From positions 8,972 through 72,971 of the forward strand of contig NZ_LMLW01000001.1 in NCBI RefSeq assembly GCF_001422045.1: a stretch of 64,000 bases of DNA, in the 5' to 3' direction. Positions 50,405 to 61,872 of the stretch are shown one piece after another. The stretch comes from Sphingomonas sp. Leaf242. Its GTDB lineage: Bacteria; Pseudomonadota; Alphaproteobacteria; Sphingomonadales; Sphingomonadaceae. The notes under the pieces are model-generated. The model saw nothing but the letters and a program-made list of their open reading frames with translations, was not told where the DNA came from and ran no database searches. Each line of letters opens with the position of its first letter. Position 1 is the first letter of the stretch. The translations under genes and the position numbers were made by a program.

Positions 50405-50758
50405 TTACCGACGTACGCTTTCGCTCCGGGCAAGCCACGGCTGCTCGCGATCGTCGCGGCCGAAGAGAGCAATGGGCACGAGGACGTCGCGGCCGGTAGA
50501 AACGATCCTGATCGCGGAGATCGCCGCCGCGAACGGAATACTGAACTCGATGGCATGAGCGTCGGTCAGCGGCGGTGCCGAGCCCTCGACCGAAGGGCCA
50601 CCACCCGTCGGTTTGTCTCGCGTGATCAGCAGCGCGCGGTGGATCGTTACCGGCGGCAGCAACCGCGACGTACCGCGCCATACGATGCTCAGGTAGTCGC
50701 GGTGCAGCACGGCGTCGCCGAGCGGAACGACGACCGCGGGTTCGGCTGCCGCCACCAC
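50405..50758 (-). CDS. Possible protein or truncated gene of unknown family
   Basis: A frame of about 117 codons from GTG 50758 ends right behind the LysR stop on the opposite strand. Its second half reads like folded protein (VTIHRALLITRDKP, HAIEFSIPFAAAISAIRIVS, GRDVLVPIALFGRDDR). The frame continues open upstream into antisense of the quinone-reductase gene, so the true start is unclear and a 5'-truncated gene is likely. Family unknown. Confidence 0.4.
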   Translation of the reverse strand: MVAAAEPAVVVPLGDAVLHRDYLSIVWRGTSRLLPPVTIHRALLITRDKPTGGGPSVEGSAPPLTDAHAIEFSIPFAAAISAIRIVSTGRDVLVPIALFGRDDREQPWLARSESVRR

Positions 50759-50832: not shown

Positions 50833-50849
50833 TGCGTACTTTCCGAGGG
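50833..50849 (+). promoter_or_regulatory. Candidate FixJ-type site upstream of fermentation operon
   Basis: TGCGTACTTTCCGAGGG lies 111 bases upstream of the quinone-reductase ATG. It shares the pattern T[AG]CGT[AG][CG]TT[TC]CCGA with sites at 56131 and, as inverted pair, at 60795-60835. It may be the binding site for the FixJ-like regulator encoded at 57471. Confidence 0.45.
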
Positions 50850-50959
50850 TCACGTCGGGGGCTGTCGACGGATAAACGTCCAGACCAGATACCCCGCAGG
50901 ATCGCGCCGCGCTTTGCTGCGGCTGGCGGGGATCGCGACACTTTGGCGAGGACGCAACG

Positions 50960-51643
50960 ATGGCAGGTGGCGAGCGCGGCACGACAGGCGGACGGCATGC
51001 CGTGATCCTGTGTCATCCCGATCCGTCGAGCTTCAACCATGCGATCGCGGGCGCCTATTGCGACGCGGTGCGCGGGGCGGGGCAGGCGGCCGTGTTGCGG
51101 GATCTGTACGCAATGGGGTTCGATCCAGTCCTCAAGGCGGCGGAGCGGCCGACCAACGTCGCCGCAGTATATGAAGCGGACGTACTGGTCGAAGTCGACG
51201 CGATCGCCGGCTGCGACGTCTTCGTTCTCGTCTACCCGATCTGGTTCGGGACGCCGCCGGCGATGCTGAAAGGCTATGTCGAACGCGTGTTCGGCGCAGG
51301 CGTGCAGCCTGAGGCGTTGCAGGGGCGAGTGCGGACCGACCTTCTCGGCGGCAAGCGGCTTGTCAGCTTCTCGACCTCCGCGGCGAGCAAGGTCTGGCTC
51401 GACGAACAGGGGCAGGGGCAGGGGCTCAACAGCGTGTTCGACCAGTAACTGGTGCATGCGTTCGGGATGCGGTCGCAGGAGCATCGCCGGTTTGCACACA
51501 TCGTGCCGGGGCTGAGCGCGCGCTTTGCCGATCAGTATCTGCGCGAGGTTGCGGTCCAGGCGCAGCGGACGTGTGCGCAGATCGCGTTCGGGGACGAGGC
51601 CTTGCTGGCCGATCCCGCGCTCGTCGCCCGGATGGCCCGCTGA
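50960..51643 (+). pseudogene. NAD(P)H quinone reductase, interrupted by TAA
   Basis: An ATG with AGGA 7 nt upstream opens a flavodoxin-fold oxidoreductase: HAVILCHPDPSSFNHAIAGA, VLVYPIWFGTPPAMLKGYVE and [15 protein letters not shown]. After NSVFDQ an in-frame TAA (51446-51448) interrupts it, and the same frame continues [20 protein letters not shown] to a normal stop at 51643. Without the TAA the protein would be 227 aa, a normal length for the family (KefF/MdaB-like), so a single point change, probably Tyr to stop, broke it. A truncated 162-residue product is possible. Confidence 0.8.
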
Positions 51644-51669
51644 TCCATCCGCATCTTCAAGGAAATTCC

Positions 51670-52701
51670 ATGACCCGTATGATGCACGCCGCCGTCGTCG
51701 AGGCGTTCGGCAAACCCCTGACCTTGCGCGAATGGCCGGTACCGGTCGCAGGGCCCGGACAGATCGTCGTCAAGACCGAAGCATGCGGGGTGTGCCACAC
51801 CGATCTGCACGCCACGCATGGCGACTGGCCGGTCAAGCCGACGCCGCCGTTCATTCCGGGCCATGAGGGCATCGGCATCGTCGTCGAAGTCGGCGCGGGG
51901 GTAACGATCGTGAAACTCGGCGACCGGGTTGGTGTGCCGTGGCTATACTCCGCGTGCGGGCATTGCGAATACTGCCTGTCCGCCTGGGAAACCGTGTGCG
52001 CCGAGGCGGAGTTCGGCGGCTACACGCGCAGTGGCGGGTTCGCCGAGTATATCCTCGCCGACCCGAACTACGTCGCGCATATTCCCGCCGGGCTGTCCGC
52101 GGTCGAGGCGGCGCCGATCATCTGTGCGGGAGTGACGACGTACAAGGGCATCAAGGAAACCGGCGCGAAGCCGGGCGAGTGGGTCGCGATCTCGGGCGTC
52201 GGCGGGCTGGGGCATCTCGCGGTGCAGTACGCCAAGGCGATGGGGTTGCGCGTTGCCGCGGTCGATGTCGACGAAGGCAAGCTCGCGCATGCCGAGGCGC
52301 TGGGCGCGGAACTGTTGATCGACGCGCGCAAGCCGGATGCGATCACGGCGCTGAAGGACAGGACCGGGGGTGGCGCGCACGGCGTGCTGATCACCGCGCC
52401 GTCGCTGACCGCGTTCAATCAGGGCGTGGCGATGACGCGGCGCAAGGGGACGTGCGTGCTCGTCGGACTGCCGCCGGGCGACTTTCCGATGCCGCTGTTC
52501 GACGTGGTGGCGCAGTGCATCACGGTGCGCGGATCGTTCGTCGGGACGCGCAAGGATATGGCGGAGGCGCTCGCCTTTGCCGCCGACGGCAAGGTGAAGG
52601 CCGACATCGAAGTGCAGCCCTTGTCGGCGATCAACGACATCTTCGACCGGCTCGAACGCGGGCAGGTTGCGTCGCGCGTCGTCCTCGATTTCGGGAGCTG
52701 A
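51670..52701 (+). CDS. adhP: Zinc-dependent alcohol dehydrogenase
   Basis: The product is 343 aa from ATG 51670 with AAGGA upstream. Catalytic zinc ligands are in [11 protein letters not shown] and GHEG; the structural zinc has four cysteines in [15 protein letters not shown]. The NAD-binding motif is [18 protein letters not shown]. The whole matches the ethanol-active AdhP group, which interconverts alcohols and aldehydes. It lies between the quinone-reductase gene (26 bases) and the phosphoketolase gene (2 bases), in one operon. It should help dispose of reducing power during fermentation. Confidence 0.93.
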
Positions 52702-52703
52702 AC

Positions 52704-55088
52704 ATGGCCGATATTGCAACGATGATGCCTCCTAAGATGCATCCTCTGTCTCACGACATGCTGCGCCGGATGGACGCGTATTGGCGTGCCGCGAATTATT
52801 TGTCGGTCGGGCAGATCTACCTGCGCGACAACGCGTTGCTCGATCGACCGCTGACGATCGCCGACGTCAAGCCGCGGCTGCTCGGGCATTGGGGGACGAC
52901 GCCGGGGCTGAATTTCCTGTACGTCCATCTCAACCGCCTGATCGTCGAGCATGACCTCGACATGATCAACATCATCGGTCCGGGGCATGGCGGGCCGGGG
53001 CTGGTCGCGAATACCTATCTGGAGGGCTCGTACACCGAACGCTATCCGGCGATCGAGCGGAGCCGCAGCGGCATGCACCGGCTGTTCCGGCAATTCTCGT
53101 GGCCGGGCGGTATCCCGAGCCATGTCGCACCCGAGACGCCGGGGTCTATCCACGAAGGCGGCGAGCTCGGCTATTCGCTCGCGCATGCCTATGGCGCAGC
53201 GTTCGACAATCCAGACCTGATCGTCGCATGCGTCATCGGCGACGGCGAGGCGGAGACGGGCGCGCTGGCGGCGAGCTGGCATTCGAACAAGTTCCTCAAC
53301 CCCGCCCGCGACGGCGCGGTGCTGCCGATCCTGCACCTCAACGGCTTCAAGATCGCCAATCCGACGATCCTAGCGCGGATCGACGAGCATGAGCTCGACG
53401 CGTTGCTGCGCGGTTATGGGCATGAGCCCTATTATGTCGGCGGCAGCGACCCGGCGGCCGTCCACCAGCAACTCGCCGCCGCCCTCGACAAGGCGTTGGC
53501 ACGGATCCAGGCGATCCAGGCGGCGGCGCGGATCGAGGGCGTGACGCCCCAGCGACCGCGTTGGCCGATGATCGTGTTCCAGACGCCGAAGGGCTGGACG
53601 GGGCCGAAGTTCGTCGACGGCAAGCCGGTCGAGGGCACTTGGCGCGCACATCAGGTGCCGATCGCCGACTTCGAGGATCCCGAGCATCTGCGCCAGCTCG
53701 AAGACTGGATGCGGAGCTATCGTCCCGAGGAGCTGTTCGATGCGAACGGCAAGTTCCTGGAGGAGTACGCCTCGCTTGCACCGACCGGGCATCGGCGGAT
53801 GGGATCGAACCCGCACGCCAATGGCGGGGAATTGATGGTGCCGCTGTCGCTGCCCGATTTCCGCAGCTTTGCGGTGCCGGTGGCAACGCCGGGCGGAGTC
53901 AAGGCGGAAGCGACGCGGGTGCTCGGGCGCTATTTGCGCGACGTGATGAAGCTCAATCTGGCGACGGTGAATTTCCGGCTGTTCGGGCCCGACGAGACCG
54001 CGTCGAACCGGCTCGCCGACGTGTACGACGTGTCGGGGAAAGTCTGGATGGCGGAGATCGAGGCGGTCGACGAGCATCTCGGGCCCGACGGCCGGGTGAT
54101 GGAGGTGCTCAGCGAGCATCTTTGCCAGGGCTGGCTCGAGGGGTATCTGCTGACCGGGCGGCACGGGCTGTTCTCGTGTTACGAAGCGTTCGTTCACATT
54201 GTCGATTCGATGGTCAACCAGCATGCCAAGTGGCTGAAGGTGACGCGCGGCATTCCGTGGCGGCGGCCGATCGCTTCTTTGAATTATCTGCTGACCTCGC
54301 ATGTCTGGCGGCAGGATCATAACGGGCTGTCGCACCAGGATCCGGGGTTCATCGATCACGTTGCGAACAAGACCGCGGACGTCGCGCGGATCTACCTGCC
54401 GCCCGATGCGAACTGCCTGTTGTCGGTCGGCGACCATTGCCTGCGTAGTCGCGGCTATGTGAACGTGATCGTCGCGGGCAAACAGCCCGAGTGGCAATGG
54501 CTCGGGATCGACGCAGCGGTGCGGCATTGCACCGCGGGGGCGGGGATCTGGGACTGGGCGGGCGACGATGCGGACCCGGACGTGGTGATGGCGTGTGCGG
54601 GCGACGTGGCGACGCTGGAGACGCTCGCGGCAGTGACGCTGTTGCGCGCATACGTGCCCGACATCCGCATCCGGGTGGTCAACGTGGTCGACCTGATGGT
54701 GTTGCAGCCACGCTCCGAACATTCGCACGGGCTCGACGAGCGCGAGTTCGACGCGATGTTCACGCGCGACAAGCCGGTGATCTTCGCGTTTCACGGGTAC
54801 CCGGCGATGATCCACAAGCTGACCTACCGGCGCGCGAACCACGCCAATATCCACGTCCGCGGGTACAAGGAGATGGGGACGACGACGACGCCGTTCGACA
54901 TGGTCGTTCTGAACGATCTCGACCGGTACAGGCTGGCGCTCGACGCGATCGAGCGCGTGCCTCGGCTGCGCGACTGCGTGCCGCGCGAGATGGCGCGGTA
55001 TTGGACGACGATGGAGCGGCACAAGCTGTACATCGCCGAGCAGGGCGACGATCTGCCGGAGGTGCGTGACTGGCAATGGTCACGGTAG
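52704..55088 (+). CDS. xfp: Phosphoketolase (xylulose/fructose 6-phosphate)
   Basis: The product is 794 aa, the normal length. Thiamine-diphosphate binding is seen in [20 protein letters not shown]; the active-site [40 protein letters not shown] and [10 protein letters not shown] are diagnostic. It cleaves xylulose 5-phosphate or fructose 6-phosphate with phosphate to acetyl-phosphate plus an aldose phosphate. The acetate kinase gene follows with a 13-base overlap and would turn acetyl-phosphate into acetate and ATP. The real start is ATG 52704, not the much longer open frame. Confidence 0.95.
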
Positions 55089-56116
55089 AGGGGCGCGCGG
55101 TAGTTCTCGCGCTCAACAGCGGTTCGTCGTCGCTGAAATATGGGCTGTACGCGGTCGATCCGGAGCCGGTCCTGCTCGTTGGCGGTACGATCGAGACGCT
55201 CGACGATGATAGCGACGATCACGCGCGCTTCCTCGATACGATCGAGACCGCGTTGAAGGGGTGGCCGACGCCTACGGTGATCGGTCACCGGATCGTCCAC
55301 GGTGGCCCGCACCGCCACGCGCATTGTCGGATCGACGATGCGGTGATGGCGGATATGGAGGCGGCGTGTGCGTTCGCGCCACTGCATGGGCCGGCGTCGC
55401 TGGCGCTGATCCGGGCGGCGGGCGCGCGCTATCCGGGCGTGCCGCAGGTCGCGTGCTTCGATACCGCGTTCCACGCCGGGATGCCCGACGTTGCCAAGAC
55501 GCTGCCGATCCCGCGCGCGTATCAGGCGGCTGGCGTGCGACGCTACGGCTTCCACGGCCTGTCCTGCGAGTCGATCGTCCGCCAACTCGGCGGCGACATG
55601 CCGGCACGGCTCGTGATCGCGCATCTCGGCAACGGCGCGAGCGTGACCGCCGTGCGCGATGGACGATCGATTGATACCAGCATGGGGCTGACCCCGTCCG
55701 GCGGCGTGATGATGGCGACGCGGACGGGGGATATCGACCCGGGCGTGTTGCTGTACCTTCTGCGAGAAACCGAGCTGGACGCCAAGGCGCTGGCGACGCT
55801 GGTCGATCATGCTGCCGGGATGACGGGTATCTCGGGGCTGTCCGGCGACATGCGCGTCCTGCGCGCTGCGGCGACCGAAGACGCCGACCTCGCCATCCGT
55901 ATGTTCGAGCGGTCGGTGTGCAAGCAGGTCGCAGCGATGATCGCCTCGCTCGGCGGCGCCGACATGCTTGTGCTGACGGGGGGCATCGGTGAGAACGACA
56001 GACTCACCGGCCGCGCCGTTCGCGACGGCCTAGCCTGGATGTCGGGGCTCGAAATCCGGATACTGCCCTCGCAGGAAGACGCGCAGATCGCGCTGCACGC
56101 TGGCGTACTCGCCTGA
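55076..56116 (+). CDS. ackA: Acetate kinase (short form)
   Basis: The product is 346 aa, shorter than the usual ~400. It retains [76 protein letters not shown] and TGGIGEN, so both sugar-kinase-fold halves and the catalytic Arg and His are present. The missing length comes from loops in the N-terminal half. It converts acetyl-phosphate and ADP to acetate and ATP. It overlaps the phosphoketolase gene by 13 bases and needs no phosphotransacetylase for this role. Confidence 0.93.
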
Positions 56117-56130
56117 CGACCTTGGCGAGG

Positions 56131-56147
56131 TACGTGCTTTCCGAGTC
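56131..56147 (+). promoter_or_regulatory. Candidate FixJ-type site
   Basis: TACGTGCTTTCCGAGTC lies about 100 bases upstream of the small gene at 56246 and shares CGT-CTTTCCGAG with the site at 50833. Its position between ackA and a short gene suggests a separate promoter. The assignment to FixJ is inferred. Confidence 0.4.
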
Positions 56148-56245
56148 CCGACGCCGCCGTCCACGCCCGCTACCGTCTGGATACGGATCGGCTCATCGAC
56201 ACCCGCATCGTGCGGCAGCGGGGGCGAACCGGCGGGGACTTCGTG

Positions 56246-56515
56246 ATGAACGCTATCCACACCGAGATACTTTATTTCCAGCGCCGCCTCGACGCCACGC
56301 GGGCGATGGCCGATGCCGCCGCCGGGCCGTGTGCGCGCCGGGCTCACGAACTGCTCGCGCAACTCTATGGCGAGAACCTAGAGGTGTTGTCAGTCCAGGC
56401 CGCCGGCCTGATCGCCGAACCCGTGCCGACATTGGCGGTGCGGAGTATCGGCGCCGCCCCGCGCCTTCGGCCGATCGCGCACCGTGCGCGCCTGACGCTT
56501 AAGCTCGCCTGCTAG
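56246..56515 (+). CDS. Hypothetical protein
   Basis: The product is 89 aa from the ATG at 56246 (the frame extends 12 codons upstream). It is helical at first (NAIHTEILYFQRRLDATRAM) and basic at the end, with no membrane segment. Its position after the acetate kinase gene and near the FixLJ genes suggests a role in the same response, but I have no family for it. Confidence 0.5.
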   Translation: MNAIHTEILYFQRRLDATRAMADAAAGPCARRAHELLAQLYGENLEVLSVQAAGLIAEPVPTLAVRSIGAAPRLRPIAHRARLTLKLAC

Positions 56516-56984
56516 CCCACATTCCTGCTGCTATGGTGCGCAGCGAAGCATGGATCAGCGAGCGGTAGCGCAGCGCAGGCGAACGCCGGGAAGCATGGCT
56601 TAAGGCTGGGGAGGTCGGCTTTGGACCACCACGGGGCATCGTTCGACAGGATCGCCGTGGAGCCCCCTGCGCCTGCGCGTGCGTCAGGCGATCGGCTCGA
56701 TGATCGGCAGTTCGCCGGTCAGTTGTGGTCGTCGAAGCCGGCGACGATCGAATGGCTGAATTCATGGCGTAATCACGTTAATTGGGCATTGCCAGACTGT
56801 AGGATCGAGATGTGGCGGCACCAGAGTCGGGAACTAGTCTAGCGCGCCCTAGCGATCGGTGCGGGCGTGGGACGGGCGCTCGAATGGCGCTTGCGGATCG
56901 AACACGCTTTTGGCCTCCCGCGAAGGCGGTAGATCAGTCTGGGTCCCCGCCTTCGCGGGAAAACAGGCTATCCTTACGCCGCAG
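56516..56984. other. Intergenic stretch with REP-like element
   Basis: About 470 bases with no supported gene. The inverted repeat at 56917-56959 sits near its right end, close to the receiver gene stop. Confidence 0.5.
56917..56959. repeat. REP-like inverted repeat, copy 2
   Basis: CCCGCGAAGGCGG (56917-56929) and CCGCCTTCGCGGG (56947-56959) are exact complements separated by 17 bases. The core AAGGCGG/CCGCCTT is shared with the element at 19185. Such elements are often dispersed in sphingomonad chromosomes. Confidence 0.6.
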
Positions 56985-57401
56985 TCAGCCCGCCGCGTTC
57001 CAGCCGGACCAGCCGCGATCGATCGACGCAGCGATCGCGGTAAGCAGCGGGGCGTCCCCGGCGGTGCGGTCGAGGATGCGGTCGCCGTGGCGTTCGGCGG
57101 CGTGGACCAGCGCGGGGGGCGGGGCGGTGCCGTCGAGCAGGATCGCCTTGCCGCGCCAACCCGACGCGCGCATCGCCTGGAGCGTGGCCATGCCGGTGCC
57201 CTCCGGGCCTTCGACATCGACGACGATGCAGGGCACGTCGCGCGATCGGGGGTCGGCGAGCAGCGCCGCGCCGGTCGCATAGGAGCGGACGTCATAGTGC
57301 TCCGAGAGCAGCATGATCTGGCGCGCGCGACGGATCGCGGGGTCGCCGTCGACCAGCGAAACGCCGATGCCGTCATGCGATTGGGGAGCGTGGTCGGTCA
57401 T
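56985..57401 (-). CDS. Degenerate receiver-domain protein
   Basis: The product is 138 aa, a single CheY-like domain: an acidic pair in GVSLVDGDPAIRRA, the probable phospho-Asp in CIVVDVEGPEGTGM, then KAILLDGTAPPPALVHAAER. The conserved Thr/Ser and Lys positions of the canonical receiver are not seen (Arg near GDRILDRTAG), so it may not switch by phosphorylation. It is beside the FixJ-like gene on the same strand (57471) and may act as a phosphate sink or protein partner. Confidence 0.7.
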   Translation of the reverse strand: MTDHAPQSHDGIGVSLVDGDPAIRRARQIMLLSEHYDVRSYATGAALLADPRSRDVPCIVVDVEGPEGTGMATLQAMRASGWRGKAILLDGTAPPPALVHAAERHGDRILDRTAGDAPLLTAIAASIDRGWSGWNAAG

Positions 57402-57470
57402 CGGGCGGGTCCTTCTCGACCCTCGATGACACGCGGACCCCGCCGCGTCTGTACGTAGAAGACGAGGGTG

Positions 57471-58103
57471 TCAGGCGGGCTCAGCGGTTTCGCCTAGCCC
57501 GGCCGAGAACGCGATGCGCAGGACGTCGGACAGGCTGCGCGCAGCGAGCTTTTCCATCAAACTGGCGCGGTGGACTTCGACGGTGCGGGTGGCGATGGCG
57601 AGGTCGTAGGCGATCAGCTTGTTCGGGCGGCCGAGCACCATGCCGTCAAGCACGTCGCGTTCGCGCGGGGTAAGGGCGGCGAGGCGGACGAGCGCGTCGG
57701 CGGCGGCAAGGTGCTCACGGTCTGACCGTGCCGCGTGCGCCAGCGCCGTATCGATCGCGGCAAGCAACGCGCTGCGCTCGAACGGCTTTTCGAGAAACTC
57801 GATCGCGCCCGCCTTGATCGCGCGAACGGCCAGCGTCACGTCGCCGTGGCCGGTCAGCAGGATCACCGGCAGCGCGATGCCGGTCTGCGCGAGGCGCGCC
57901 TGTACCTCCAACCCGTCGAGGTCGGGCATGCGGACGTCGAGTAGCACGCAGCCGCGCGTCTCCCGCGTCACGGACTTCAGGAAATGCGTGCCCGCCGGAT
58001 AGGTCTCGACCGCATACCCTGCCTTGCGCAACAGGAAACCGACCGACTGGCGGATCGCCTCGTCGTCGTCGACGATATGCACCGTGCGGAGTACGTCAGT
58101 CAT
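57471..58103 (-). CDS. fixJ: FixJ/NarL-type response regulator
   Basis: The product is 210 aa from ATG 58103. Receiver: TVHIVDDDEAIRQSVGFLLR, phospho-Asp in GCVLLDVRMPDLDGLEV, Thr in LLTGHGD, Lys in FLEKPF. The LuxR-type helix-turn-helix follows: LTPRERDVLDGMVLGRPNKL, IAYDLAIATRTVEVHRA. This matches FixJ of rhizobia and relatives, which activate microaerobic genes. Its ATG overlaps the stop of the sensor kinase by 8 bases. It presumably binds the shared motif upstream of the fermentation, Usp and BON genes. Confidence 0.9.
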   Translation of the reverse strand: MTDVLRTVHIVDDDEAIRQSVGFLLRKAGYAVETYPAGTHFLKSVTRETRGCVLLDVRMPDLDGLEVQARLAQTGIALPVILLTGHGDVTLAVRAIKAGAIEFLEKPFERSALLAAIDTALAHAARSDREHLAAADALVRLAALTPRERDVLDGMVLGRPNKLIAYDLAIATRTVEVHRASLMEKLAARSLSDVLRIAFSAGLGETAEPA

Positions 58104-59781
58104 CGGTGTCGCCTTCTTGTGGCGCGGCAAGCGGCACGGTGAAGTGGAACGCCGTGCCGCCGTTCGTAACGCCCTCCGCCCAGATCCGCCCGCCATGCGC
58201 CTCGACGATCGTCCGGCAGATCGACAGGCCGAGCCCCATGCCGTCCTCCTTGGTGGTCGCGAACGCCTCGAACAGACGAGCGCGGACGTCGGTGTCGATA
58301 CCGGAGCCCGTGTCGGCGACGGTGACTTGCATCCAGCCATCTCGTTCGGGCGCGGTGGCGATCGACAGCGTCCGGACCGGCGACGCGGTCATCGCATGGA
58401 TCGCGTTGCGGATGAGGTTGACGAGCACCTGCTGGATCTGGATGCGATCAACGCGGACCATGATCGGGCCCGGCGAGGCCGTGTTGACGACGGCAATCCC
58501 CGCCTCGTGTGCGCCGAGCAGACCAAGGCTGGTCGCCTCTTCGACGAGCAGGTCGAGCGCTTCGTCGCGGAACCCCGTGTCGCCGCCATCGACGAACGCG
58601 CGCAGTCGGCGGACGATCGTGCCCGCCCTCAGCGACTGCGCCGCTGCCAGGTCGAGCGCCTCGGCGATATCGGCCAGCAGCGGGTCAGCGCTGCCGTCTA
58701 TCATCGCCCGCGTTGCCTCGAGATAATTGGCGATCGCGGTCAGCGGCTGGTTGATCTCGTGCGCCAGGGTGGACGCCATCGTGCCCATCGCGCTGACGCG
58801 GGAGACATGGACGAGTTCGGATTGAAGCTCCTGTACGCGGCGCTCGGTCGCATGGCGGTTGGTGAGGTCGCGGATGAAGCCGGTGAAGATGCGTTCGCCC
58901 GCGATCGACGCCTCGCCGACCGCGAGTTCGATCGGAAACGTCTCGCCGCCTTTACGCATCGCGCGTTCGAGCCGGACGTTGCCGATCACGTGGCGCTCGC
59001 CGGTGTGGCGGTATTTCCCCAGGTGCGCGTCGTGATCGCGCGATTCCACCTGCGGCATCAGCATCGCGACGTTCTGGCCGATCACGTCGCTCGCCGCATA
59101 GCCGAAGACGAGTTCGGCGGCGGCGCTGAACGAGGCGACGATGCCGTTCTCGTTCATCACGATCATCGCGTCGGGGACGGTGTTGAGGATCGAGCGGAGA
59201 TGGTGTTCGCGGCGGACGATCGCGGCCTCGGCGGCCTTCTCATGCGTGATGTCGCGGATCACCTTGCCGAACCCGCGCAACGCACCGGCATCGTCGTGGA
59301 GCGCGGTGATCGTGACGTGCGCGAGGAATTCGGAGCCGTCCTTGCGGACCCGCCAGCTCTCTTCCTCGATCCGGCCATCGCAGTGTGCGCGGGCGAGGTC
59401 GGCTTCGGGCTTGCCCGCGGCGATATCGTCGGCGGGGTAGAAGATCGCGAAATCGCGGCCGATGATCTCTGCCTCGGCCCAGCCCTTGATCCGTTCCGCG
59501 CCGCGGTTCCAGATCGTCACGCGGCCGCGGGGATCGAGCATGTAGATTGCATAGGTCGCCGCGCCGTCGATCAGCAGCCCCAGTTCCTCCGCCAGCGCCG
59601 CATCGCCGCGCGCCACCGCCTGGGGGTCGGTACCGGGCGAAGACTGCGACGCGATCATGCGGGCGGTGCGGTGGCTCGGGGGGCGCAGAGGCAAATCATC
59701 GAGATGCGGGCCTTGTTCGACACACTGATCCGATCCGGCAGGGGGCAATGATACGACGCCCTCGTTCGGACCATGACGCAT
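58096..59781 (-). CDS. fixL: FixL-type heme-PAS sensor histidine kinase
   Basis: The product is 561 aa from ATG 59781 (ATG 59658 would give 520). Two PAS domains, ~70-180 and ~195-315, precede a kinase core. The second PAS closely follows the FixL heme domain: VPDAMIVMNENGIVASFSAA, FGYAASDVIGQNVAMLMP and the heme-ligand His in GERHVIGN, then GERIFTGFIRDLTN. The H-box is TLAHEINQPLTAIANYLEA, with N-, G1- and G2-box motifs beyond (NLIRNAIHAM, VADTGSGID, GMGLGLSICRTI). No transmembrane helix is seen. It should sense oxygen and phosphorylate the FixJ-like protein. Confidence 0.9.
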   Translation of the reverse strand: MRHGPNEGVVSLPPAGSDQCVEQGPHLDDLPLRPPSHRTARMIASQSSPGTDPQAVARGDAALAEELGLLIDGAATYAIYMLDPRGRVTIWNRGAERIKGWAEAEIIGRDFAIFYPADDIAAGKPEADLARAHCDGRIEEESWRVRKDGSEFLAHVTITALHDDAGALRGFGKVIRDITHEKAAEAAIVRREHHLRSILNTVPDAMIVMNENGIVASFSAAAELVFGYAASDVIGQNVAMLMPQVESRDHDAHLGKYRHTGERHVIGNVRLERAMRKGGETFPIELAVGEASIAGERIFTGFIRDLTNRHATERRVQELQSELVHVSRVSAMGTMASTLAHEINQPLTAIANYLEATRAMIDGSADPLLADIAEALDLAAAQSLRAGTIVRRLRAFVDGGDTGFRDEALDLLVEEATSLGLLGAHEAGIAVVNTASPGPIMVRVDRIQIQQVLVNLIRNAIHAMTASPVRTLSIATAPERDGWMQVTVADTGSGIDTDVRARLFEAFATTKEDGMGLGLSICRTIVEAHGGRIWAEGVTNGGTAFHFTVPLAAPQEGDTDD

Positions 59782-59920
59782 GTTAAGCCAAAGACCCGCT
59801 ATATGCTAATAGTCCTTCGATGATCGCGATTGCCGACAAGGTCGTGACGCCGACGACTAGTCTTCGGTTCGCCTTGGCAACCGGGCCAAGATAATTGCGG
59901 ATCACGGCGCCCGTCACGGT

Positions 59921-60739
59921 TCAGTGCGACAGCAATGTGCAACGCCGGTCGCGCAGCAGCAGGTCGCGGGTGACGCCGCCGAACGCCCATTCGCGGATCC
60001 GGCTGTGACCATAGGCGCCCGCGACGACGAGGTCGGCCTCGACGTCGTTCGCGATGCCCGCGAGCGTGTCGATGCTGGTGCCTTTCATCCGCGCGACGAT
60101 CTTATCCGCATCGACGCCGTGGCGTGCGAGCCAGGCGGTGACGTCGTCGATCGGTTTCCGCGCGTCGATCGCGTCGATCGCCACCTCGACGATCACGACC
60201 CGGTCGGCGGCGTGGAGCATCGGCAACGCATCGCTGATCGCGCGGCGGCATTCGCGCGTATCCGTCCACGCGATCATGATCGTCGAGAAGATGGCGGTCG
60301 CGGCGCCGTCGGGAACGATCAGCACCGGGCGGCCGGCGCGCAGGATGAGATCGCCGGTGTCGGCATGCGTCGCGCGGTCGGCAAACCCTGGGCCAGCGCT
60401 GGTGATGACGAGATCGGCGGCGCGCGCGTTCTCCGCGACGACGTGCGCGATGTTGACGATCGTCGGGATCGACCGCCATTCGAGGACGTGCTTGGCGAGC
60501 CGTTCGTGCGCGTAAAACTCGGTCTTGGCGCGGGCGAGTTCGTCGGCGACGATATCGCGCTCGATCACCGCATAGTCGCCGCCGAGATAGCCGTCGCACG
60601 TGCCGATCGGCACCGGCTGGCAGGCGGCGATGCCGATCACCGCGGCGTCATGCTGATCGGCAAGCGTGGCCGCGACGTCGAGCAGGACGGCGTTAGGTCG
60701 GCCGCCGTCGAGATGCACCATCAGGGTCGAATAGGTCAT
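59921..60739 (-). CDS. Tandem universal stress protein (UspA family)
   Basis: The product is 272 aa, two Usp domains. The second has the nucleotide-binding GAYGHSRIREWAFGGVTRDL near the end. The first domain (TLMVHLDGGRPNAVLLDVAA) lacks that motif. Expression in low oxygen is suggested because the gene shares a divergent promoter with the BON gene containing FixJ-like motifs. It probably stabilises cells during anaerobic or stress conditions, as Usp proteins do in other bacteria. Confidence 0.88.
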   Translation of the reverse strand: MTYSTLMVHLDGGRPNAVLLDVAATLADQHDAAVIGIAACQPVPIGTCDGYLGGDYAVIERDIVADELARAKTEFYAHERLAKHVLEWRSIPTIVNIAHVVAENARAADLVITSAGPGFADRATHADTGDLILRAGRPVLIVPDGAATAIFSTIMIAWTDTRECRRAISDALPMLHAADRVVIVEVAIDAIDARKPIDDVTAWLARHGVDADKIVARMKGTSIDTLAGIANDVEADLVVAGAYGHSRIREWAFGGVTRDLLLRDRRCTLLSH

Positions 60740-60794
60740 GCGCGGTCTCCCTCTTTCGCCGAGCTGTCGGCGTTAGGGCGGGCGCATGAAAGGA

Positions 60795-60835
60795 TCGGGA
60801 ACTACGCATAAGCGCGGCATGTGCGTAGTTCCCGA
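60795..60835. promoter_or_regulatory. Inverted pair of FixJ-like sites in divergent promoter
   Basis: Perfect 14-nt arms (TCGGGAACTACGCA at 60795-60808 and its complement TGCGTAGTTCCCGA at 60822-60835) with a 13-base spacer sit between the Usp and BON genes. Each arm carries the T[AG]CGTA[CG]TT[TC]CCGA pattern, one facing each gene. Confidence 0.6.
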
Positions 60836-60912: not shown

Positions 60913-61563
60913 ATGTCTCACGACGCCAGATTGCAGAAAGCCGTACTCGCCGAACTCAACTGGGACCCGAGCGTCCCCGCCGGTCACATCGCCGTCACCG
61001 CGAACAACGGCGTCGTCACGCTGAGCGGCCACGCCGGCAGCTACGCCGCAAAATACGCCGCCGAACGCGCCGCCGCGCGCGTCGATGGCGTGAAGGCGGT
61101 CGCCGAGGCGATCGAGGTGCAGCTGGAGGACCGCTTCAAGCGTGGGGACGAGGCGATCGCCAGCGCGATCGTCGAGCGCCTCTCCTGGGATACCACTGTT
61201 CCGCATGACAGCATCAAGGCGCAGGTCGAGGATGGCTGGGTCAGCCTGCGCGGCGAAGTGCGCTGGCATTTCCAGAAGGACGCAGCCGAGGCGGCGGTAC
61301 GGCCGCTCGCAGGCGTGGTCGGCGTGATCAACCACGTCACGCTGAAGCCGCGCGTCGACGTGACCGACGTCAGCAACGACATCCGCACCGCGCTGCACCG
61401 CTCGTGGTTCTTCGACGGCGACACGATCAAAGTGTCGGTCGACGGCGGCACGGTGCGGCTCACCGGCTCGGTCGATTCGCCGCACGACCGGATGGTCGCC
61501 GAGCGCACCGCCTGGGCGGCGCCGGGCGCGGTGAAGGTCGAGAACATGCTCGAAATCGTCTGA
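60913..61563 (+). CDS. Protein with three BON domains
   Basis: The product is 216 aa from ATG 60913 with CAGGAG upstream. Three BON domains of about 70 residues follow one another: VTANNGVVTLSGHAGSYAAK, VEDGWVSLRGEVRWHFQKDA and VSVDGGTVRLTGSVDSPHDR mark each. BON domains bind membranes or osmotic-stress partners; there is no signal peptide, so it may be cytoplasmic. It is divergent from the Usp gene with a shared control region and is probably induced with it. Confidence 0.9.
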   Translation: MSHDARLQKAVLAELNWDPSVPAGHIAVTANNGVVTLSGHAGSYAAKYAAERAAARVDGVKAVAEAIEVQLEDRFKRGDEAIASAIVERLSWDTTVPHDSIKAQVEDGWVSLRGEVRWHFQKDAAEAAVRPLAGVVGVINHVTLKPRVDVTDVSNDIRTALHRSWFFDGDTIKVSVDGGTVRLTGSVDSPHDRMVAERTAWAAPGAVKVENMLEIV

Positions 61564-61590: not shown

Positions 61591-61615
61591 ACGTCACGTC
61601 ACGTCACGTCACGTC
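61591..61615. repeat. Pentanucleotide tandem repeat (ACGTC)5
   Basis: Five perfect copies of ACGTC in a row, just before the VIT-family remnant. Copy number changes by slipped strand would shift the reading frame of anything downstream, although the gene after it is already broken. Confidence 0.7.
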
Positions 61616-61872
61616 ACCGATCGGATCGGCTGGCTTCGCGCGGCGGTGCTCGGCGCCAATGACGGGCCAATGACGAGATCGCCTCGACTGGCAGCCTGAT
61701 CATCGGCGTCGCCGCCGCCGGTGGTCAGGTCGCCGAGATCGTCATCGGCGTGACACTCGCGGCCCTGCTGTTCACGGCGCGGGTGAGCGATACCGTTGCG
61801 ATTATTGGTCCTGGGGACGACGCGCCCACCGAACGCGAAGCACCGCCGACCTGGCCAGATTTCCAGACCTAG
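61616..61872 (+). pseudogene. VIT1/CCC1-family transporter remnant
   Basis: One frame reads TDRIGWLRAAVLGANDG, the N-terminal signature of the VIT iron/manganese transporters. A nearby frame continues EIASTGSLIIGVAAAGGQVA, matching the second block. Some sequence is deleted between them and the rest of the transporter is absent. The following VTLAALLFTARVSDTVAI segment ends at TAG 61872 and may come from another membrane protein, so this is a deletion-fusion relic. Confidence 0.6.

Follow-up and report, generated by a model that had tools for sequence, protein, structure and literature searches.

A predicted FixJ-controlled fermentation and stress regulon around fixLJ in Sphingomonas sp. Leaf242

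In the rhizobial FixL-FixJ-FixK cascade of Sinorhizobium meliloti and Bradyrhizobium diazoefficiens, a haem-PAS sensor kinase, FixL, is paired with FixJ, a response regulator made of a receiver (REC) domain and a LuxR-type helix-turn-helix (HTH) domain. We examined a 64,000-nucleotide stretch of DNA from Sphingomonas sp. Leaf242 (the window), in which fixL and fixJ lie among four copies of the motif T[AG]CGT[AG][CG]TT[TC]CCGA, and found both types of protein together with a motif core of the GTAGTTTCC type, as in the rhizobial cascade. The locus differs from that cascade in that the boxes stand on effector genes, their 3´ half is different and no exact box lies at a Crp-family gene of the genome. 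From comparison with related genomes, we put the probability at about 90% that the four sites are FixJ boxes through which FixL-FixJ would activate the genes they point to. Sphingomonads are usually regarded as aerobes, and the prediction is that these Sphingomonas would ferment sugars by phosphoketolase once oxygen runs out.

For S. meliloti FixJ, systematic evolution of ligands by exponential enrichment (SELEX) gave the consensus GTAGTTTCCC, and the fixK site reads TAAGTAATTTCCCTTA; fixK is described as the sole known conserved FixJ target, and the Sphingomonadales are listed with FnrN only, not FixK (PMC4999443). In Bradyrhizobium, a FixK2 site stands before phosphoketolase-acetate kinase genes and before oleate hydratase (PMC9104804), an approximately ninefold effect of FixK on a phosphoketolase appears for one of the conditions listed in Rhodopseudomonas (PMC3050613), and predicted FixK regulon members include a phosphoketolase and an alcohol dehydrogenase (PMC2908626). 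Oxygen control of phosphoketolase through FixLJ is therefore not new, and the statement of an earlier note on this DNA, that phosphoketolase has rarely been linked to FixLJ, holds only for direct control by FixJ, which does look unusual and is the apparent new point here. The FixK2 target families (phosphoketolase-acetate kinase, oleate hydratase; PMC9104804) carry predicted FixJ boxes in the window or its relatives.

The lxa locus of Burkholderia cenocepacia likewise encodes low-oxygen-activated universal stress (Usp), BON-domain, flavin-reductase and heat-shock proteins, and the proteins of the locus were more abundant in later patient isolates; it differs in that the genes for the FixLJ homologues (BCAL2210/2211) lie outside it, the regulator discussed is a FixK homologue, and the cited passages mention no FixJ box (PMC6127331). 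FixLJ of Burkholderia dolosa is also low-oxygen-responsive, and ~11% of genes are altered when it is deleted; the target shown there is fixK, and a S. meliloti fixK promoter was unresponsive (PMC5234846), which we read as a sign of lineage-specific boxes. Among sphingomonads, FixL-FixJ is reported for Sphingobium hydrophobicum, in two copies on plasmids, the cited passages naming neither targets nor boxes (PMC6783567). Our search of the literature on FixJ/FixL, phosphoketolase, Sphingomonas and hypoxia, with subscription papers mostly outside its scope, returned no earlier description of the regulon discussed here. The mycobacterial DosR system has haem kinases and a NarL-family regulator; its sensor family and box differ from those of FixLJ. 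Its dormancy regulon is similar in being under hypoxic control, and 10 of its 48 genes encode Usps (PMC6127331).

The motif in the window and in related genomes

The earlier note had recorded the motif at 50833, 56131 and twice within 60795-60835, with FixL and FixJ encoded between the sites. On rescanning, all of these occurrences were exact (50833 +, 56131 +, 60795 - and 60822 +), the window held no further zero-mismatch match, and both regulators were found where described. Genes were called with a simple purpose-made script, not a standard gene finder, and the start given for FixL is that caller's choice. The predicted sites and the regulators are as follows.

50833 to 50846, + strand: predicted FixJ box 1; exact match, precedes the qor-adhP-xfp-ackA operon, 113 bp to the qor start
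50871 to 50876, + strand: putative -10-like element of box 1; TA at +40/+41, columns conserved over 59 non-redundant sites
56131 to 56144, + strand: predicted FixJ box 2; exact match, precedes the small 89-aa gene
60795 to 60808, - strand: predicted FixJ box 3; exact match, faces usp, 55 bp to its start
60822 to 60835, + strand: predicted FixJ box 4; exact match, faces the BON gene, 77 bp to its start
57471 to 58103, - strand: FixJ response regulator, REC-LuxR HTH (Pfam); best PDB match 5xso, Response regulator FixJ, E 5.7e-52
58096 to 59658, - strand: FixL sensor kinase, PAS-PAS-HisKA-HATPase (Pfam PAS in two stretches, HisKA, HATPase_c)

FixJ is assigned to its class by the combination of REC and LuxR HTH, a known FixJ as its closest match and the position of its gene beside fixL. 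Within the HTH domain, IATRTVEVHRASLMEKL is matched by ISPRTIEVYRANVMTKM in 5xso, which we take to be the Bradyrhizobium FixJ, and the putative recognition helix is very alike. FixL combines a PAS-type sensor with a kinase, and its second PAS is of the haem type, aligning to PDB FixL haem-PAS chains at E 7.3e-43. The proximal His, which ligates haem, and the distal Arg (H200 and R220 of BjFixL) are both conserved in the sequence alignment, and the position that we take to be a second Arg, R206, is Lys. The named loci nearest by FixJ belong to Sphingomonas at 93-99% identity, S. faeni included; S. aurantiaca follows at 88%.

In the complete genome of the strain (4.30 Mb, 14 contigs), the same four copies were the only exact matches, all within one 10-kb stretch around fixLJ, and the reversed pattern used as control gave none. 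Such a genome scan had been proposed in the earlier note, and the matches are not randomly scattered. Allowing up to two mismatches gave 222 matches versus 244 for the reversed control; the loosened motif thus adds no excess, and a wider regulon in this genome is not readable. Eleven sites had one mismatch, of which ten fell inside called gene frames (two of these frames being short and low-scoring) and the only intergenic one was without the T at +17 described below.

Because the motif was derived from these four sites, the window alone is no proof, and support must come from relatives. Among 201 genomes of the genus, 26 encode a FixJ at least 75% identical to that of the window (the FixJ clade), and two or more exact copies of the motif were found in 22 of these 26 versus 5 of the 175 others (Fisher p 8.6e-21, for related genomes that are not independent events). 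Exact copies totalled 115 in the 26 and 39 in the 175, versus 9 and 67 for the reversed control. Within the clade, 100 of the 115 copies lay within 50 kb of a clade fixJ on the same contig, and in one 5.1-Mb genome (G033) all nine copies stood inside ~31 kb around its two fixLJ pairs. The exceptions in the clade were G021 and G177, with no exact copy, and G141 and G183, with a single copy each. In G021, boxes with one mismatch stand before qor, GNAT-like and YkuD-like genes (named by eye), and G177 has a two-mismatch box before qor, with both the +17 T and the downstream TA.

A 42-nt extended pattern, built from the box and the downstream geometry of the genus sites, was found in 25 of the 26 clade genomes (73 matches), with one control match in all 201 genomes. 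Genomes of the family outside the genus had no part in making this pattern. Among them, two or more extended matches occurred in all three with a FixJ at least 72% identical (G253, G314 and G377) versus 1 of 193 others (G357).

Promoter geometry and likeness to known FixJ boxes

The geometry was examined at 108 sites in the strain's own and related genomes, with repeats that had identical ±30 bp dropped and with two genomes without the FixJ clade (G022 and G071) included; removing sites at least 62% alike downstream left 59 non-redundant ones. The fetched loci cover part of the 115 clade sites, not every one. In these loci, which are 85% coding, 103 of 105 exact copies, 61 of 65 one-mismatch copies and 23 of 60 two-mismatch copies were intergenic, versus 0 of 1, 0 of 10 and 10 of 62 for the reversed control. 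Two of the 108 sites were scored as inside a gene, one of them through an over-long gene call across the usp-BON gap. A called gene lay in the pointed direction at 96 sites, with the box 50-125 bp before the start codon at 78 of them; the remaining 12 of the 108 had no called gene on that side.

Outside the original motif, the 59 sites conserve C or G at +16 (57 sites), T at +17 (52), T at +40 (32) and A at +41 (43), with little conserved between box and TA. The motif thus reads as part of a promoter element, in which an 18-bp activator box would be followed at a fixed distance by a -10-like element; assuming a start ~12 bp after the TA, the box centre would lie near -42 to -45. Among the four boxes of the window, the +17 T is present in three and the TA at +40/41 in two: box 1 has both (TA at 50873-50874), box 2 has C in place of the T, box 3 has GA in place of the TA, and box 4 has its TA one base nearer (+39/40).

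As the earlier note proposed, the motif resembles rhizobial FixJ sites: its core matches both GTAGTTTCCC, the SELEX consensus, and TAAGTAATTTCCCTTA, the site at fixK (PMC4999443). Seven Methyloceanibacter/Hyphomicrobiaceae (Hyphomicrobiales) loci, retrieved through their similarity to FixJ, were examined; five have TACGTAGTTTCCCTTA upstream of a Crp-like gene that adjoins fixLJ, with the Crp domain confirmed by Pfam in two of the five and named by eye in the rest, and the Sphingomonas box shares TRCGTAGTTTCC with these boxes. Having a core of the GTAGTTTCC type that co-occurs with the FixJ clade and matches the consensus, the motif is very probably a FixJ box, to which FixJ is predicted to bind.

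Several observations weigh against this assignment. Not every FixJ-like protein is accompanied by the motif: 64 of the 175 non-clade genomes have a FixJ homologue at E 1e-60 and 51-66% identity, and two or more copies were found in only four of these 64 (below 75% identity) and in one of the other 111, while exact sites occurred at only one of 15 loci around such homologues. Extended matches are also present in 9 of the 175 genomes without the clade (16 matches), and for the boxes of G006, G197 and G208 no regulator was assigned. Across the family (199 genomes) the extended pattern gave 19 matches versus 24 for the control, no excess in total, so that single matches mean nothing there and only multi-match genomes were used; the control matches were single, and the pattern matches pile up in four genomes. 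Of the window's own boxes, box 1 alone has the extended geometry in full (in the strain's genome a relaxed form gave one match and the control one), and no exact box precedes fixLJ in the scan of that genome. The 3´ half of the box, CCGANGST, is unlike the CCCTTA of rhizobial boxes, and the core was absent from two of the seven loci with a Crp-like gene (L204 and L245). Finally, at 54 distant FixJ loci (L199-L253 without L216, a member of the FixJ clade) the core CGTAGTTYCC was present at 6, versus 9 for the reversed control, and the strict site at none. Five of the six cores stand upstream of a Crp-like gene, the sixth being that of L209; as the core is no commoner than the control, it is this position that forms the argument.

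Candidate regulators and target genes

A further point against FixJ is that G022, G019 and G357 have multiple boxes and no clade FixJ, and these genomes also favor the alternative that another regulator travelling with the cluster, either a neighboring LysR- or TetR-like protein or an unlinked factor, binds the motif. G022 does have a FixJ homologue of 60%, on another contig than its boxes. All three carry, on the box contig, one or two frames of ~1450-1510 codons with a FixJ-like stretch (36-43%). Pfam was run on G022 and on G031, which has FixLJ as well, and in both genomes the frame has the order CheB-CheR-PAS-HisKA-HATPase-REC-REC-LuxR HTH; for G019 and G357 the assignment rests on frame length and FixJ similarity. 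The frames, of ~1420-1510 aa, are as follows.

L151:7923-12281, - strand: fusion frame in G022
L146:3475-7731, + strand: fusion frame in G031
G357:C2 near 342489 and near 432339: fusion-like frames
G019:C19 near 253604: fusion-like frame

This protein ends in REC plus LuxR HTH in both scanned genomes and may read the same boxes as FixJ. The window does have a LysR-like gene (named by eye) upstream of qor; a LysR match, however, was present in only one of five clade loci compared (L061-L065), where fixL was found in all five (and fixJ by construction). The core moreover equals the published FixJ consensus (PMC4999443) and precedes the Crp-like gene beside fixLJ in Hyphomicrobiales, and we regard a different regulator as improbable. 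We also considered a rewiring in sphingomonads, in which targets reached indirectly in rhizobia (FixJ to FixK to xfp-ackA, and oleate hydratase) came to carry FixJ boxes and some lineages replaced FixLJ by the fusion protein, the cis code outliving the change of sensor; we hold the chances of this scenario to be even.

Under the preferred reading, FixL, as a haem-PAS kinase, would sense falling oxygen and phosphorylate FixJ, which would then bind 18-bp boxes of the type TGCGTAGTTYCCGANGST. With the box centred ~32 bp upstream of the -10-like TA, activation would be from a class II position, each oriented box serving the gene it points to. Whereas the motif, its position, its co-occurrence with FixJ, the target genes and the domain identity of FixL and FixJ were computed, it is binding, phosphorylation, activation as the direction of control and oxygen as the signal that we infer. 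The targets would be the quinone reductase/alcohol dehydrogenase/phosphoketolase/acetate kinase operon, for fermentation and ATP from acetyl-phosphate, together with the small gene, usp and the BON gene:

50960 to 51448, + strand: quinone reductase (qor, Flavodoxin_2; Pfam), 162 aa, cut by an in-frame stop at 51446-51448
51670 to 52701, + strand: zinc alcohol dehydrogenase (adhP-like; Pfam ADH_N, ADH_zinc_N)
52704 to 55088, + strand: phosphoketolase (xfp; Pfam XFP_N, XFP, XFP_C)
55076 to 56116, + strand: acetate kinase (ackA; Pfam Acetate_kinase)
56246 to 56515, + strand: conserved small protein of 89 aa outside any Pfam family; its orthologues follow boxes in 11 genomes
59921 to 60739, - strand: universal stress protein (usp; Pfam Usp)
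60913 to 61563, + strand: three-BON-domain protein (Pfam BON, three stretches)

FixJ would act on these end-point genes itself, not via FixK. In the strain's own genome, no exact box was found at any of eight Crp-domain matches (six over the cut-off), degenerate boxes being outside this test, and hence no exact FixJ box stands before a fixK as in the canonical cascade. No FixK-type palindrome with at most one mismatch was found at the box promoters of the window, where the FNR/FixK palindrome had four one-mismatch matches in all, versus 2.85 expected, one of them inside adhP at 52621. Together these two negative results make control of the end-point genes look direct.

Counting sites with the window included, the Flavodoxin_2 quinone reductase family has boxes before it at 17 sites (16 genomes), the BON gene family at 16 (15 genomes) and Usp at 11 (10 genomes), and a box lies 76-101 bp before the small gene in 11 genomes. 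Further genes preceded by boxes encode a YkuD protein (7), GNAT (6), alcohol dehydrogenase (4), phosphoketolase (4) and VIT1 (3), with acetate kinase, alternative oxidase, a cation P-type ATPase, GrpE, DnaJ, oleate hydratase (MCRA), aldehyde dehydrogenase and a FAD_binding_2 flavoprotein found once or twice. Less telling neighbors were a cupin, an erythromycin-esterase-type protein, a receiver and three genes without a Pfam family or unscanned. In this tally the acetate kinase and receiver targets were named from the starts of their sequences, and the gene on the other side was taken, if within 260 bp, when the pointed side had none, so that some genes, including those for alternative oxidase and aldehyde dehydrogenase, are on the side away from which the box points. 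Outside this set, in further genera or genomes, phosphoketolase has a box before it twice, and so do an ATP-synthase-type subunit, acetate kinase and alternative oxidase. This set of fermentation, oxidase, chaperone and stress genes is what would be expected for cells short of oxygen. The earlier note's proposal of a FixLJ-controlled fermentation and stress regulon is thus supported by FixJ co-occurrence, clustering near fixJ and the target genes, with binding and low-oxygen induction as the predicted part. The box is well defined, the geometry of its promoters is fixed, and the predicted sites, about a hundred across 26 genomes, outline a coherent low-oxygen regulon; the system would thus allow direct tests of how FixJ recognizes DNA, of class II activation and of regulatory rewiring.

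FixJ might instead bind the boxes and repress, shutting the genes off at low oxygen, and a 2026 report describes inhibition of nif genes by FixLJ in response to oxygen in Rhodopseudomonas palustris (PMC13327599). A box centre ~32 bp upstream of the -10-like TA would, however, be an activator position, and phosphoketolase, acetate kinase, alcohol dehydrogenase, alternative oxidase and chaperones fit induction under oxygen shortage; repression is therefore a distinctly improbable direction. The fixed spacing to the TA (~23 bp past the last conserved base) and the orientation toward the gene could suggest that the motif is recognized by an alternative sigma factor, which we consider hardly tenable: an 18-bp block at this distance is longer and further up than a -35 element, the EcfG-type promoter is unlike the motif, and the motif follows fixJ across genomes (in a comparison that covered fixJ).

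An RNA hairpin or terminator at 60795-60835, with the likeness of the four sites due to chance, has next to no probability: a perfect 14-nt inverted repeat does lie between the divergent usp and BON genes, but among relatives the offset between the arms varies (25-27 bp) while each keeps the distance to its own gene (54-56 bp from usp in several genomes; 76-80 bp from BON at 14 of 16 sites), and 108 sites of shared geometry argue against chance. The arm toward usp is TGCGTAATTCCCGA in several relatives, where the pair is then no longer perfect. The description of the pair as a perfect inverted repeat is exact for the window, and by its predicted nature the pair is two back-to-back promoters, not one hairpin, each site facing its own divergent gene.

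Other features of the locus

The gene content of the proposed quinone reductase-adhP-xfp-ackA operon is borne out by Pfam, its first gene being interrupted by the in-frame stop. In most relatives qor was called at 213-228 aa, and the copies of the close relatives G094 and G192 have 227 aa; the truncation may be a recent gene loss in this strain or a sequence error. A frame of 117 aa (50405-50758, - strand; 106 aa in G034) is divergent from qor and starts 74 bp from box 1, of which it is a possible second target. The small protein encoded behind box 2 has 89-102 aa across relatives, and a 60-aa protein, encoded close to the FixJ of 59% in G033 and G071, has a similar start.

56985 to 57401, - strand: stand-alone receiver-domain protein adjoining fixJ (Pfam Response_reg)

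Lone receiver-like genes (that of the window, L222:9746-10147 and L159:12731-13141) are found beside fixJ in Sphingomonas and, in Methyloceanibacter, between fixJ and the Crp-like gene (the latter named by eye); the protein is a possible phosphate sink or modulator of FixLJ. Past the BON gene, the window has a short tandem run of CACGT units at 61592-61617.

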